Below, piece after piece: positions 9,573 to 15,142 of a DNA stretch of 64,000 nucleotides. The notes below the pieces were generated by a model, which did no database searches, was not told the origin of the DNA, and saw nothing but the letters and a program-made list of their open reading frames with translations. The position numbers were made by a program, and so were the translations under genes. Numbering within the stretch: position 1 is the stretch's first letter; each line of letters opens with the position of its first letter. Source of the DNA: Pseudosporangium ferrugineum (GTDB lineage Bacteria; Actinomycetota; Actinomycetes; Mycobacteriales; Micromonosporaceae); NCBI RefSeq assembly GCF_003002065.1, contig NZ_PVZG01000011.1, positions 1 through 64,000 of the forward strand. The letters are read 5' to 3'.

Positions 9573-10412
9573 TCAGTTGCAGCGCTCCAGCAACTGCACA
9601 GCGCGCCACCGGGCGACCAGTTTCTCGTACGCCTCGGTCGCCGCGTCCGCGTCGCCCCGCGACAGCGCCGACAGGCCGGCCGCCACCAGCCCGGGTGAAT
9701 CGTCGTCGTGCAGGGCGTCGTTCTTCAGCAGGCCGGTGAGGCCGCCGTAGTCCAGCTCGACGATGGAACGCGGGTGGAACTCCTCCAGCCAGCGCGTACC
9801 CTCCTCGACCGCCTCGGTGATCGGCGCATCGCCCAGGGACTTGCGCAGGACGGAGACGCCCCGGTGCGCGCGCCGGCGGGCCTTGGAGATCTCCGTGCGG
9901 TAACGCAGCGTGCGCTTGCCGCCGGTCAGGTTGATCTCCCGCTCGTCCAGGTCCACGAAGACGAACCAGCGCAGCGGCACGCCCCACGTGGCGATCTGCT
10001 CGTGCACCCGCGGCACGCCGTGCTCGAGCACCTTCGCGCCGCTGCGCCAGTCCTCGACCACGGCCTTCGCCTGACCGGCGAGCACCGGCGGCACGAAGGC
10101 GTCGGCGAGGACGCTGGGCACCCCGTCGCGCGCGTTCAGGGCCGCCTCGGCGACCCGGAGCCGCAGATTCCACGGGCAGACCAGCAGCGTGTCGCCCCAC
10201 TCCATCACGTACGCCTCGTCGGGCAGATCGGGCAGCCGGGTCCAGCCGGCGCCGAGCGCCTCGAGCACGGCGGTCCGCTGCCGGACCGGCCCCTCGACAG
10301 GGCCCAATGCCCGGCCTTCCCGGGCATAACGACGCCAGAAAAGCTGACGGTCCCGGTCGAAGGCGGTCAGCGGTTCGTAAACGCGCAGGTACGACGCGAA
10401 CAGTGACGGCAC
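9573..10412 (-). CDS. conserved hypothetical protein of the bldC-vdh locus
   Basis: A 279-aa soluble protein, MPSLFASYLRVYEPLTAFDR at the start and VARWRAVQLLERCN at the end. There is no signal peptide or membrane segment. The middle contains WGVPLRWFVFVDLDEREINL and a basic patch TEISKARRRAHRGVSVLRKS; the C-terminal part ends in a helical repeat (ALSRGDADAATEAYEKLVARW) resembling a tetratricopeptide unit. I recall homologues at the same place beside bldC in other actinomycetes, but no assigned function. The gene is divergent from the dehydrogenase at 10575. Confidence 0.8.
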   Translation of the reverse strand: MPSLFASYLRVYEPLTAFDRDRQLFWRRYAREGRALGPVEGPVRQRTAVLEALGAGWTRLPDLPDEAYVMEWGDTLLVCPWNLRLRVAEAALNARDGVPSVLADAFVPPVLAGQAKAVVEDWRSGAKVLEHGVPRVHEQIATWGVPLRWFVFVDLDEREINLTGGKRTLRYRTEISKARRRAHRGVSVLRKSLGDAPITEAVEEGTRWLEEFHPRSIVELDYGGLTGLLKNDALHDDDSPGLVAAGLSALSRGDADAATEAYEKLVARWRAVQLLERCN

Positions 10413-11657: not shown

Positions 11658-11836
11658 GGCTTTTGTACGCCGTCGCGCGCCGCGTCCCCGACACGCCGCG
11701 ACGCGCGACGGTGGTACACGTAACCCGAGGTGCCGAAGGCGGCATCGTCCATGTACCGTAAGACCCACGAGAGATGCCTGACGTCATCGGGGCCCGCCTT
11801 CGGGCTGCCCCGAATTCTGTGCGAGGGGGTCGAGCC

Positions 11837-12052
11837 ATGGGGCGCGGCCGTGCTAAGGCCAAGCAGACAAAGGTGGCCCGGGAGTTGAAGTATCACTCCC
11901 CGAACACCGACCTCACCGCCTTGCAGCGCGAACTGGCGGGTGCTGGTAAGTCCGACCATCACTTCAACGACGACGACAACGAGTTCGTCGACGATGAAGA
12001 CGATGACGATGCGGACGACGAGCACGACAGCTGGTCGCCTTCGAGGCGCTGA
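11837..12052 (+). CDS. DUF3073 protein
   Basis: A 71-aa actinobacterial protein: basic start MGRGRAKAKQTKVARELKYH, the conserved SPNTDLTALQRELAG segment, then a very acidic Asp-rich end (DDDNEFVDDEDDDDADDE). The charge split between the two halves is typical of DUF3073. I chose ATG 11837 because it gives the family's usual N-terminus; an in-frame start at 11774 adds unconserved residues. Function is unknown. It stands alone between vdh and a terminator. Confidence 0.88.
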   Translation: MGRGRAKAKQTKVARELKYHSPNTDLTALQRELAGAGKSDHHFNDDDNEFVDDEDDDDADDEHDSWSPSRR

Positions 12053-12325: not shown

Positions 12326-12547
12326 TCAGCGCGGCCGGTTGTTCCAGTTGTAGAACGTCGGGATGTTCTCGAAGTGGTTCCAGGCGCAGACCGCCGAGCC
12401 GTCCTTCGTCACGGACTCCGCGCGCCGCTGCCGGGCCTCCTCTGCCTCCTCGATCAGGGCGGCCAGGCCCGTACGGGTGTCGCGCACCCGCGCCGTCACG
12501 GGGTCCGTCTCGGGGTCAGACGGCCGTGGGCTCGTGATCTCGGGCAT
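12326..12547 (-). CDS. amcA: AmcA-like RiPP precursor with multiple cyclophane triads
   Basis: A 73-aa precursor peptide. Residues 1-50 are a charged helical leader (GLAALIEEAEEARQRRAES). The C-terminus from Cys54 reads CAWNHFEN, then IPTFYNWNN, then RPR. It contains four aromatic-X-Asn/His triads: W56-N-H58, F59-E-N61, F65-Y-N67 and W68-N-N70. These are the sites on which three-residue cyclophane-forming radical SAM enzymes link an aromatic ring to a side-chain beta carbon. The gene starts inside the maturase gene's 3' end (32-nt overlap, different frame) with GGAG about 10 nt upstream. The AmcA name is from memory of the family. The product and bioactivity are unknown. Confidence 0.85.
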   Translation of the reverse strand: MPEITSPRPSDPETDPVTARVRDTRTGLAALIEEAEEARQRRAESVTKDGSAVCAWNHFENIPTFYNWNNRPR

Positions 12548-13640
12548 GGTCCAGCACTCCGTCCAGTAGGCGAATCTTGCTGTTGAGACAGTGGTCCGTC
12601 GTCGTCACGTCGAAACGGCCCCGCTCGAAGTAGCGGTTGGCCGCATGCGCGCCGCCGCAGAAGCCGAAATACGGGCACCGGTCACGGCAGGCCTCGACGC
12701 CGTCCAGAAACTCCCGGATCCACGGGGTGCCGGTTGCTCCGGCGAGGATCTCCGCCAGCGGGGTGGTCAGGACGTTGCCGCTGCTGAAGTCGCCGTACCG
12801 GGGATCGGAGAAGCCGGCCAACTCGGGCGAGAGCAGCACCACGCTGCCGTCGTGCGCCACGGTCGGGATCGGGTCGAGGCGCCGGGGCAGCACGGCGTCC
12901 GCCGTACCGTCGAGCACCGCCGCCACGTAGCGCAACGACCACTCGATCTCCCGCAGGTGGATGCGGGGGTCCCGCCGCCAGGCGCCGACGAGCTCGGACC
13001 AGAAGGCCGTCACGTCCTCCTCGGGATGCCGGTTGGCGCGCAGGTTCACGCCCTCCAACTCCTCGACGTTGATGCCAAGGACGTCGCAGCCCAGCTCGAG
13101 GAAGTAGTCGTACAGCTCGGTGGCCAGGCCGGGCACGGGCCGCCCGACCACGCACAGCGCGGAGAACGGGATGCCGTGCCGCTTCAGGGCCTCGATCCCC
13201 CGCACGATCCGCGCATACGCCGGCTTGTCACCGGCCGTGACGCGATCGCCGTTACGCGCCTCGGGCCCGTCGACGCTCACGCTCACCCGGACGCCGTGCT
13301 CGGCGAAGAACTCGCACCACGCATCGTCGATCAGGGTCGCGTTGGTCTGCACGTGGTGCTCGACGCCTTCGGCGAACGGCCGCATCAATTCCGCCAGGTG
13401 CGCCCGTCCCGCCGCGAGGGGCTCACCCCCGTGCCAGACAACCGAGAATCTTCCCGTACGGGCCCAGGGGTTCACAGAAGCAGCGACGGCGCGGGCCACC
13501 TCCACGGGCATCTTCCGGTCCGCCCGCCGCAACGGCAGGTAGCAGTAGGAACAGTCAAGATTGCAGAGTGTGGTGGGCTGCATGACGACATAGGTAGGAA
13601 CCGTGGCGATCCCGCGCATACCGCTCCAGCGATCCCGCAC
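12516..13640 (-). CDS. amcB: AmcB-like radical SAM/SPASM cyclophane-forming maturase
   Basis: A roughly 374-aa radical SAM enzyme. The [4Fe-4S]-SAM motif CNLDCSYC is at about residues 26-33 (CX3CX2C). GGEP-type SAM contact VVWHGGEPLAAG and SVDGP follow. A C-terminal SPASM region carries Cys near 318, 322, 328 and 351 (CRDRCPYFGFCGG, later DHC) for auxiliary clusters. It should install C-C crosslinks on the overlapping precursor encoded immediately downstream. GTG 13640 is preferred over GTG 13646 because GGGGAGG then lies at proper spacing. No exporter, protease or second modifying enzyme is encoded beside it. Confidence 0.9.
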   Translation of the reverse strand: MRDRWSGMRGIATVPTYVVMQPTTLCNLDCSYCYLPLRRADRKMPVEVARAVAASVNPWARTGRFSVVWHGGEPLAAGRAHLAELMRPFAEGVEHHVQTNATLIDDAWCEFFAEHGVRVSVSVDGPEARNGDRVTAGDKPAYARIVRGIEALKRHGIPFSALCVVGRPVPGLATELYDYFLELGCDVLGINVEELEGVNLRANRHPEEDVTAFWSELVGAWRRDPRIHLREIEWSLRYVAAVLDGTADAVLPRRLDPIPTVAHDGSVVLLSPELAGFSDPRYGDFSSGNVLTTPLAEILAGATGTPWIREFLDGVEACRDRCPYFGFCGGAHAANRYFERGRFDVTTTDHCLNSKIRLLDGVLDHARDHEPTAV

Positions 13641-13678
13641 AGCCACCTCCCCGTCCGCGCCGTCGTCGGCTCAGGGCC

Positions 13679-13770
13679 AGGCTAAGCGCCGACGTCCACC
13701 CGAGTGTGCCCCGCCCGGCCCCGCACGACGAAAAGATCCGCGGGTGCCCTCACATCGACACACGCGGATC
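13679..13770 (-). promoter_or_regulatory. candidate promoter/operator region of amcBA
   Basis: A TAGCCT -10 candidate (complement of 13679-13684) lies about 40 bp before the amcB start. Upstream, GATCCGCG (13735-13742) and CGCGGATC (13763-13770) form a perfect 8-bp inverted repeat with a 20-bp spacer. This could be a two-half-site operator. No regulator gene is adjacent, so the binding protein is unknown. Confidence 0.4.
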
Positions 13771-13990: not shown

Positions 13991-15142
13991 TCAGCCGCGG
14001 GTGTACTGGCCCATCATCTGCACCTGGCCGGTGCCCTCGATGACCTCGCCGACCTGCCACGCCTCCACGCCGCGGCCGGTCAGGTAGGCCATGGCCCGGT
14101 CGGCGTCGTCGGCCGAGACGATCGTGAACATGCCGACGCCCATGTTGAACGTGGCTTCCATCTCGGTGTCCTCGATGCGGCCCTTGGCCTGGATCAGGTC
14201 GAAGATCGACTGGGGGCGCCAGGACGACCGGTCGACCACCGCGTCGGCGTGCTCGGGCAGGATGCGGACCAGGTTGCCCGGGATGCCGCCGCCGGTGACG
14301 TGCGAGAACGCGCGCACGTCGGTCTCCTCGATCAGGCCGAGGCAGTCCTTGGCGTAGATCTTCGTCGGGGTGAGCAGCTCCTCGCCGAGGGTGCGCTGCT
14401 TGCCGAAGTCCTCGACCACCGTGTCGAGCCGCATCCGTCCCGCGCCCAGCAGCACGTGCCGGACCAGCGAGTAGCCGTTGGAGTGCAGGCCGGACGAGCG
14501 CATCGCGATGACCGCGTCGCCGATCTCGACCCGGTGGGCGCCGAGGATCTCGCTCTCCTCGACCACGCCGACCCCGGTGGCGGAGACGTCGTACTCGTCG
14601 GGACGCAGCACGCCCGGGTGCTCCGCCGTCTCGCCGCCGAGGAGCGCGCAGCCGGCGTACCGGCAACCGTCCGCGATGCCGGCGCCGATCTCGGCGACCT
14701 TGTCCGGCACGACCTCGCCGCAGGCGATGTAGTCCAGCAGGAACAGCGGCTCGGCACCGCAGGCGACCAGGTCGTCCACCACCATGGCGACGAGGTCGAT
14801 GCCGATCGTGTCGTGGATGTCGAGCTGCTGGGCGATGACCAGCTTGGTGCCCACGCCGTCGGTCGACGAGGCCAGGATCGGGCTCGTGTACTTCTGGGTG
14901 TTCAGCTTGAACAGGCCCGCGAAGCCACCCAGGTCACCCATCACCTCGGGGCGGGTGGTCTTCTTGACCTTGCTCTTGAGCAGCTCGACCGCGCGCTCAC
15001 CGGCGTGGATCGAGACGCCGGCGTCCGCGTACGTCACCGTGCGCTTGCGTCCGGGCCGGCCGGCGCCCGCTGACCAGGGCTGGCGGTCGGCGCCCTCGGC
15101 ACCGTTCGATCCGGCACTGCTGCGCTCGGACACGTGCGTCAC
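13991..15142 (-). CDS. purM: phosphoribosylformylglycinamidine cyclo-ligase (AIR synthetase)
   Basis: A 383-aa enzyme that closes FGAM to aminoimidazole ribonucleotide with ATP, the fifth step of de novo purine synthesis. After a poorly conserved 35-residue N-terminus, the canonical start YADAGVSIHAGERAVELLK appears, followed by GGFAGLFKLN, STDGVGTKLVIAQ, GIDLVAMVVDDLV and GGETAEHPGV. The C-terminal ATP-grasp-like half carries SHVTGGGIPGNLVRILP. It is 78 bp downstream of purF on the same strand and is very likely co-transcribed with it. Confidence 0.97.
   Translation of the reverse strand: MTHVSERSSAGSNGAEGADRQPWSAGAGRPGRKRTVTYADAGVSIHAGERAVELLKSKVKKTTRPEVMGDLGGFAGLFKLNTQKYTSPILASSTDGVGTKLVIAQQLDIHDTIGIDLVAMVVDDLVACGAEPLFLLDYIACGEVVPDKVAEIGAGIADGCRYAGCALLGGETAEHPGVLRPDEYDVSATGVGVVEESEILGAHRVEIGDAVIAMRSSGLHSNGYSLVRHVLLGAGRMRLDTVVEDFGKQRTLGEELLTPTKIYAKDCLGLIEETDVRAFSHVTGGGIPGNLVRILPEHADAVVDRSSWRPQSIFDLIQAKGRIEDTEMEATFNMGVGMFTIVSADDADRAMAYLTGRGVEAWQVGEVIEGTGQVQMMGQYTRG

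Follow-up and report, generated by a model that had tools for sequence, protein, structure and literature searches.

The two-gene amcBA locus of Pseudosporangium ferrugineum encodes a radical SAM maturase and a peptide precursor, and the explanation that we favour, with a probability of about 0.6, is that they produce a triceptide with three, perhaps four, rings that performs a standing, non-antibiotic role. Sequence comparisons support the placement of the pair, as a member, in the already catalogued AmcB/AmcA kind. Newly described here are the near-invariant core of the precursor, the fixed chromosomal address of the pair, the occurrence of other cores at the same site, and in-frame fusions of enzyme and core. 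Antibiotics are a frequent aim of work on radical SAM peptide products. In many related soil bacteria, the end of this peptide that is expected to carry carbon-carbon rings hardly changes at one chromosomal address with no adjacent export genes, which points to a standing role.

Organization of the amcBA locus

In the window (the whole 64,000-nt stretch analysed), both genes are located on the minus strand. The maturase gene amcB (12516..13646) encodes 376 aa if translation begins at GTG, or 367 aa if the ATG at 13619-13617 is the start, and amcA (12326..12547) encodes a 73-aa precursor of the AmcA_3a type. The initial annotation placed the maturase gene directly before the peptide gene. This order is correct, but the genes do not merely adjoin: they overlap by 32 nt, and the same overlap was found in 70 of 81 loci. 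The window genome has single matches to AmcA_3a and, at E 1e-90 or better, to AmcB.

Upstream of amcB, after a gap of 344 nt, lies purM (13991..15142, minus strand), recognized by PF02769/PF00586 and gene order. Downstream of amcA, after 273 nt, is a DUF3073 gene (11774..12052, plus strand), recognized by PF11273 and gene order. A Pfam scan of six genes flanking the pair in the window revealed purM and purF on one side, and on the other DUF3073, a Glu/Leu/Phe/Val-type dehydrogenase (vdh), an ORF without Pfam domains, and a MerR-type HTH (bldC-like) protein. Genes for an exporter, protease, immunity protein, or tailoring enzyme were not found among these six, in line with the earlier statement that transporter, protease, and tailoring genes are missing next to the pair. 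The ORF between vdh and the bldC-like gene (9573-10412, 279 aa) had no Pfam match at E 0.001 and is kept in this neighbourhood.

The comparison set comprised 80 named loci, the best 80 of at least 443 relatives; these are the nearest ones, so the sample leans to likeness. Conservation of the peptide beside the maturase in related genomes had been set beforehand as a check on the initial annotation, and a peptide followed amcB in all 80 named relatives kept.

The AmcB maturase

AmcB scored 523 bits against the NCBIfam equivalog model NF041718 (cut-off 425). The next best maturase model among the matches listed (best 25 of 66 NCBIfam families) was GrrM/OscB (TIGR04261), but the score of 234.3 bits is under its cut-off of 310, and membership of the window AmcB in that family was rejected. 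The sole Pfam model over its cut-off was PF04055; DUF4224 remained under cut-off (E 0.17), and no SPASM model was listed by Pfam at E <= 1. The motif CNLDCSYC (CX3CX2C; C28, C32, and C35) is invariant in all 31 aligned AmcBs, which take in partners of 3a, 3b, third-type, and FDN/WDN cores, and the same is true of the pattern C320-X3-C324-X5-C330-X22-C353. These data bear out the initial description of a radical SAM enzyme with CX3CX2C and C-terminal auxiliary cysteines. The four C-terminal cysteines presumably hold one auxiliary cluster. Because conservation begins at G9-M10, the ATG at 13619 is more likely to be the start of amcB than the GTG at 13646.

The AlphaFold2 model of AmcB, built from 35 sequences, had a mean pLDDT of 76.5 and a pTM of 0.81, with weak parts under pLDDT 50 at residues 26-41, 136-142, and 196-204. 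The nearest PDB folds were the anaerobic sulfatase-maturating enzyme (anSME) and ChlB, with query-normalised TM scores of 0.65-0.69 and an rmsd of about 5 angstrom. For ChlB (PDB 9gm3/9gmc, solved as a chain called 'ChlB radical SAM domain'), the TM score was 0.65-0.67 at 20-21% identity, and the sequence match had an E of 2.4e-12; a cited title terms this protein a multiple cyclophane synthase. Among the matches listed, Couchioplanes caeruleus subsp. azureus has the closest AmcB (91%), and the named relatives place the host in the Actinoplanes group of the Micromonosporaceae. Two viperin models also matched AmcB (E 7.8e-10 and 3.8e-5); this was taken as general radical SAM likeness, and a defence function was rejected.

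The AmcA precursor and its core

AmcA matched the NCBIfam equivalog model AmcA_3a (NF041722) with 111.9 bits at a cut-off of 65. Its score against AmcA_3b (NF041723) was 41.5 bits, under the cut-off of 65, and membership in this family was therefore rejected. With both proteins over the curated cut-offs of NF041718 and NF041722 and with the adjacent two-gene layout, no feature separating the pair from the AmcA_3a/AmcB families was found, and its earlier assignment to the AmcB/AmcA kind stands. We take Phan and Morinaka 2022 (ACS Chem Biol 17:3284) to be the source of these families. Among the papers listed in a literature search, the names AmcA and AmcB appeared only in uses that, judging by the titles, are apparently unrelated.

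The leader (residues 1-51; 12395..12547, minus strand) is variable with some conserved positions, namely R20, G27-L28, L31, E34-A35, A38-R39, R42, and E44. The 22-residue C-terminal core AVCAWNHFENIPTFYNWNNRPR (residues 52-73; 12329..12394, minus strand) carries four aromatic-X-Asn/His triads, W56-N-H58, F59-E-N61, F65-Y-N67, and W68-N-N70; these are the four triads that had been noticed in the last 20 residues of the peptide, now located at positions 56, 59, 65, and 68. Shuffling the whole AmcA 100,000 times never put four triads in the last 20 residues, and shuffling these 20 residues alone did so in 1,107 of 100,000 cases.

The core is identical in 80 of 81 copies (the 80 named relatives and the window), which are encoded by 64 distinct DNA sequences. 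The exception is L118 (Catellatospora), with F for Y; one other locus (L048) has one residue more behind the core. Over 81 AmcA rows, the mean deviation was 0.31 for the leader versus 0.0005 for the core. No 22-aa window deviating as little as the core was found in PurM (80 rows), AmcB (81 rows), or Vdh (80 rows), where the best windows deviated by 0.0017, 0.041, and 0.0068, respectively; the margin of the core is small over the best PurM windows and larger over AmcB and Vdh.

Other cores at the purM site and enzyme-core fusions

In other genera, the purM site is occupied by precursors of a different type: all five that were scanned (L126, L127, L130, L133, and L136) were over the AmcA_3b cut-off. 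A third core type, RWTDVFTTQFTEFSNRPR, was found at the purM site in genus g24 (L132:2564-2788 and L135:2558-2746); one of these two precursors had no match, and the other scored 21.5 bits to AmcA_3b at a cut-off of 65. This type stays below the cut-offs of the NCBIfam AmcA models.

To compare the core types, 12 precursors were aligned with MAFFT. The triads F-x-N/D, F-x-N/Q/E, and W/F-x-N are common to 3a, 3b, and the third type, with the W-T-D of the third type matched to F-E-N/D by eye (MAFFT aligns the W of that triad to W56, introducing a gap). AmcA_3b resembles the window AmcA in F-x-[ND], F-x-[NQE], [WF]-x-N, and the NRP-like end, but is without W-N-H and Cys and has one residue more (FEDAFPTFYQF type). 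Among the 12 aligned precursors, the whole W-N-H and Cys are present in 3a alone, and some 3b cores retain W, with P or A replacing H. The alignment suggests that three rings are the kept set and that a fourth is possible in 3a. Since W-N-H is absent from the other cores at the purM site, four crosslinks are uncertain, and even the three are uncertain outside 3a because Q or E can occupy the third position of the middle triad. The other cores at this site offer a natural experiment for judging which rings are important.

The AmcA_1 family (NF041721) has the same maturase equivalog as partner and the same two-gene layout, but its core consists of FDN/WDN repeats, and purM is not adjacent in the loci read. 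Two such loci (L010 and L184) were scanned with the AmcA_1 model, both being over cut-off, and the other FDN/WDN loci were assigned by eye. Micromonospora-like and other family genomes (L010-L031 and L033) carry an additional AMC locus of this kind, located away from purM and bearing FDN/WDN cores; no clear core was seen at the AMC locus of L012. In L012, L131, L140, and L192, a precursor was not found.

Two loci encode the maturase and the core in one chain. The L138 fusion (1462-2733; 423 aa) scored 451.9 bits to AmcB, ends with TYYNWNNRSR, and retains just two triads. The L191 fusion (1447-2757; 436 aa) scored 419.4 bits, just under the AmcB cut-off, and has an FDN/WDN core at its end. Both are single open frames in draft genomes and represent two separate cases. 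They tie the enzyme to its substrate independently of gene order, with assembly error being possible.

Distribution of the pair

Of 300 evenly drawn Micromonosporaceae genomes, 243 contained AmcA_3a over cut-off. At E 0.001 AmcA_3a was detected in 249 genomes from 29 of 44 genera, six of these matches lying under the cut-off (read as six rows at E 1e-6 to 1e-9). AmcB was over cut-off in 258 of the 300 genomes, a count that includes loci of the AmcA_1 (FDN/WDN) kind. Some genera of the family are without AmcB over cut-off. In 17 of 17 stretches from such family genomes, there was no AmcB match near DUF3073, and purM was present within the same stretch in 5 of these 17 pair-less neighbourhoods. 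The amcBA pair is therefore dispensable to the family.

Among 394 genomes of the class, AmcA_3a was found in three, the window genome and two others of its family. AmcB matches at E 1e-90 or better were found in 10 of the 394 genomes; seven were outside the family, five of them over cut-off. Six of the seven extra-family loci have FDN/WDN-type cores, judged by eye, and in one a precursor beside AmcB was not found. AmcA_3b was over cut-off in none of the 394 genomes; three matches fell under it, and these were 3a loci, one in the window genome and the others in two genomes of the same family. A search of 72,556 plasmid records at E 1e-5 found nothing matching AmcA. AmcB matched only three phage records at E 1e-20, with 32-35% identity over 45-46% of the query. 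A mobile origin of the pair was considered, and no sign of it was seen in the records covered, plasmids for AmcA and phages for AmcB.

Chromosomal position and descent

The gene order purF-purM-amcB-amcA-DUF3073-vdh was found in 79 of the 80 named loci; 78 of these contained all eight genes sought, and one (L097) is cut by a contig end. In L118 (Catellatospora sichuanensis), the purM/purF pair is inverted in orientation. AmcB and PurM distances over 80 rows were correlated (Spearman 0.857; none of 199 permutations was as high). The correlation between PurM and Vdh distances was 0.789, so that of AmcB with PurM is no worse.

A PurM tree was constructed for 47 of 105 PurM rows, namely 30 of type I plus every row of another type; L137 and L198 have long branches in it, and L131 was labelled 3b by genus alone. 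The core types required 5 changes on this tree (minimum 4) versus 16.0 with shuffled labels. The five rows without the pair make up one side of a branch (99/91). Type 3a is not a single group, as L118 (3a) was placed with five 3b rows (96/94), and given the starred branches the 3a label must have changed at least twice.

The AmcB tree was built from 36 chosen rows, and long branches in it may meet, according to the tool warning. It placed L118 with the 3a group at weak support (91/76), and the third core type formed one group (100/100). The purM-site AmcBs were apart from 11 of the 12 labelled AMC1; L192 has a very long branch and is placed within the purM-site AmcBs, and L191 lies at their base. 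For the most part, the pattern is one of descent at a single site, and replacement of amcBA in the L118 lineage is possible. The conflict between the PurM and AmcB trees over L118 speaks against strict descent and lowers confidence in the best explanation.

Proposed mechanism, role of the product, and alternatives

In the proposed mechanism, AmcB would bind the AmcA leader, and the radical SAM step would join the ring of the first aromatic residue to the beta carbon two residues on (i, i+2), giving strained three-residue cyclophanes. The rings would most likely form at F59-E-N61, F65-Y-N67, and W68-N-N70, and perhaps at W56-N-H58. By analogy with known maturases, AmcB very probably makes such aryl-to-beta-carbon i/i+2 crosslinks in AmcA. 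The triceptide chemistry of OscB, XncB, and MscB is described in passages of PMC11002830. Cleavage or export, if any, could be performed by general cell machinery, and the product may act in the producing cell as a signal, an effector, or another ligand of a conserved partner.

A standing non-antibiotic role of the product is likely. The nearly fixed core and the fixed address speak against a diversifying weapon, as does the scan of six flanking genes, which turned up no exporter, protease, or immunity gene. A more far-reaching proposal, which we regard as tentative, is that of a lineage-wide housekeeping triceptide with a conserved target or a sensory role in most Micromonosporaceae. With the same reserve, the 3a, 3b, and third-type cores might then be versions of one ancestral effector at one address.

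The notion that amcA is a chance reading frame and that AmcB acts on another substrate might be prompted by a short overlapping ORF in GC-rich DNA; it was ruled out, and its probability is negligible, given the lack of the triads in 100,000 shuffles, the conservation of the core in protein and not in DNA, and the match to a curated family. It is also quite unlikely that AmcA yields a secreted antibiotic or bacteriocin resembling darobactin or dynobactin. Among peptides with three-residue rings, PMC12026744 names these two as having well-understood activities; one abstract calls darobactin, and a figure legend dynobactin, active against bacteria. Against this reading, the window locus has no exporter, protease, or immunity gene among the six flanking genes scanned, and its core is almost invariant in 81 copies.

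Two other possibilities are special cases of the standing role and overlap with the probability given to it and the rings jointly. One is that the peptide is a feedstock for a small excised redox cofactor, like PQQ and mycofactocin, which are redox cofactors cut out of a peptide. Two genes, hardly changing residues, and no adjacent exporter would fit this, but all 22 residues are conserved in 3a rather than a few, and no tailoring gene occurs among the six flanking genes scanned, making the cofactor an unlikely product. The other is that the leader is never removed from the modified peptide, which would act either as a small intracellular protein or on AmcB itself. No protease among the flanking genes scanned, the conserved leader positions, and the two natural fusions with the core in the enzyme chain are consistent with this; however, the rest of the leader is variable (mean deviation 0.31), and the fusions are two cases from draft genomes, so we consider it improbable as well.

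Putative control elements

A -10-like box, TAGCCT, is located upstream of amcB at 13679..13684 (minus strand). Of 81 loci, 68 carry this hexamer within the 130 nt preceding amcB, versus 1.92 expected from shuffling, which suggests that amcB has its own promoter and may be transcribed separately from purM. Between purM and amcB, the window contains an inverted repeat (13735..13770, minus strand) followed by a short T run, a putative terminator-like element or operator. A like hairpin between purM and amcB, with GATCCG/CGGATC-type arms, was picked in 24 of 81 loci, of Actinoplanes type; the scan made one best pick per locus with no shuffled control, and picks outside the 24 mean little. In an 18-row alignment, the upstream region could not be aligned family-wide. 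In L084, L087, L090, L094, and similar Micromonospora loci, an inverted repeat upstream of amcB contains the TAGCCT box, and AGGAGG comes after this repeat.
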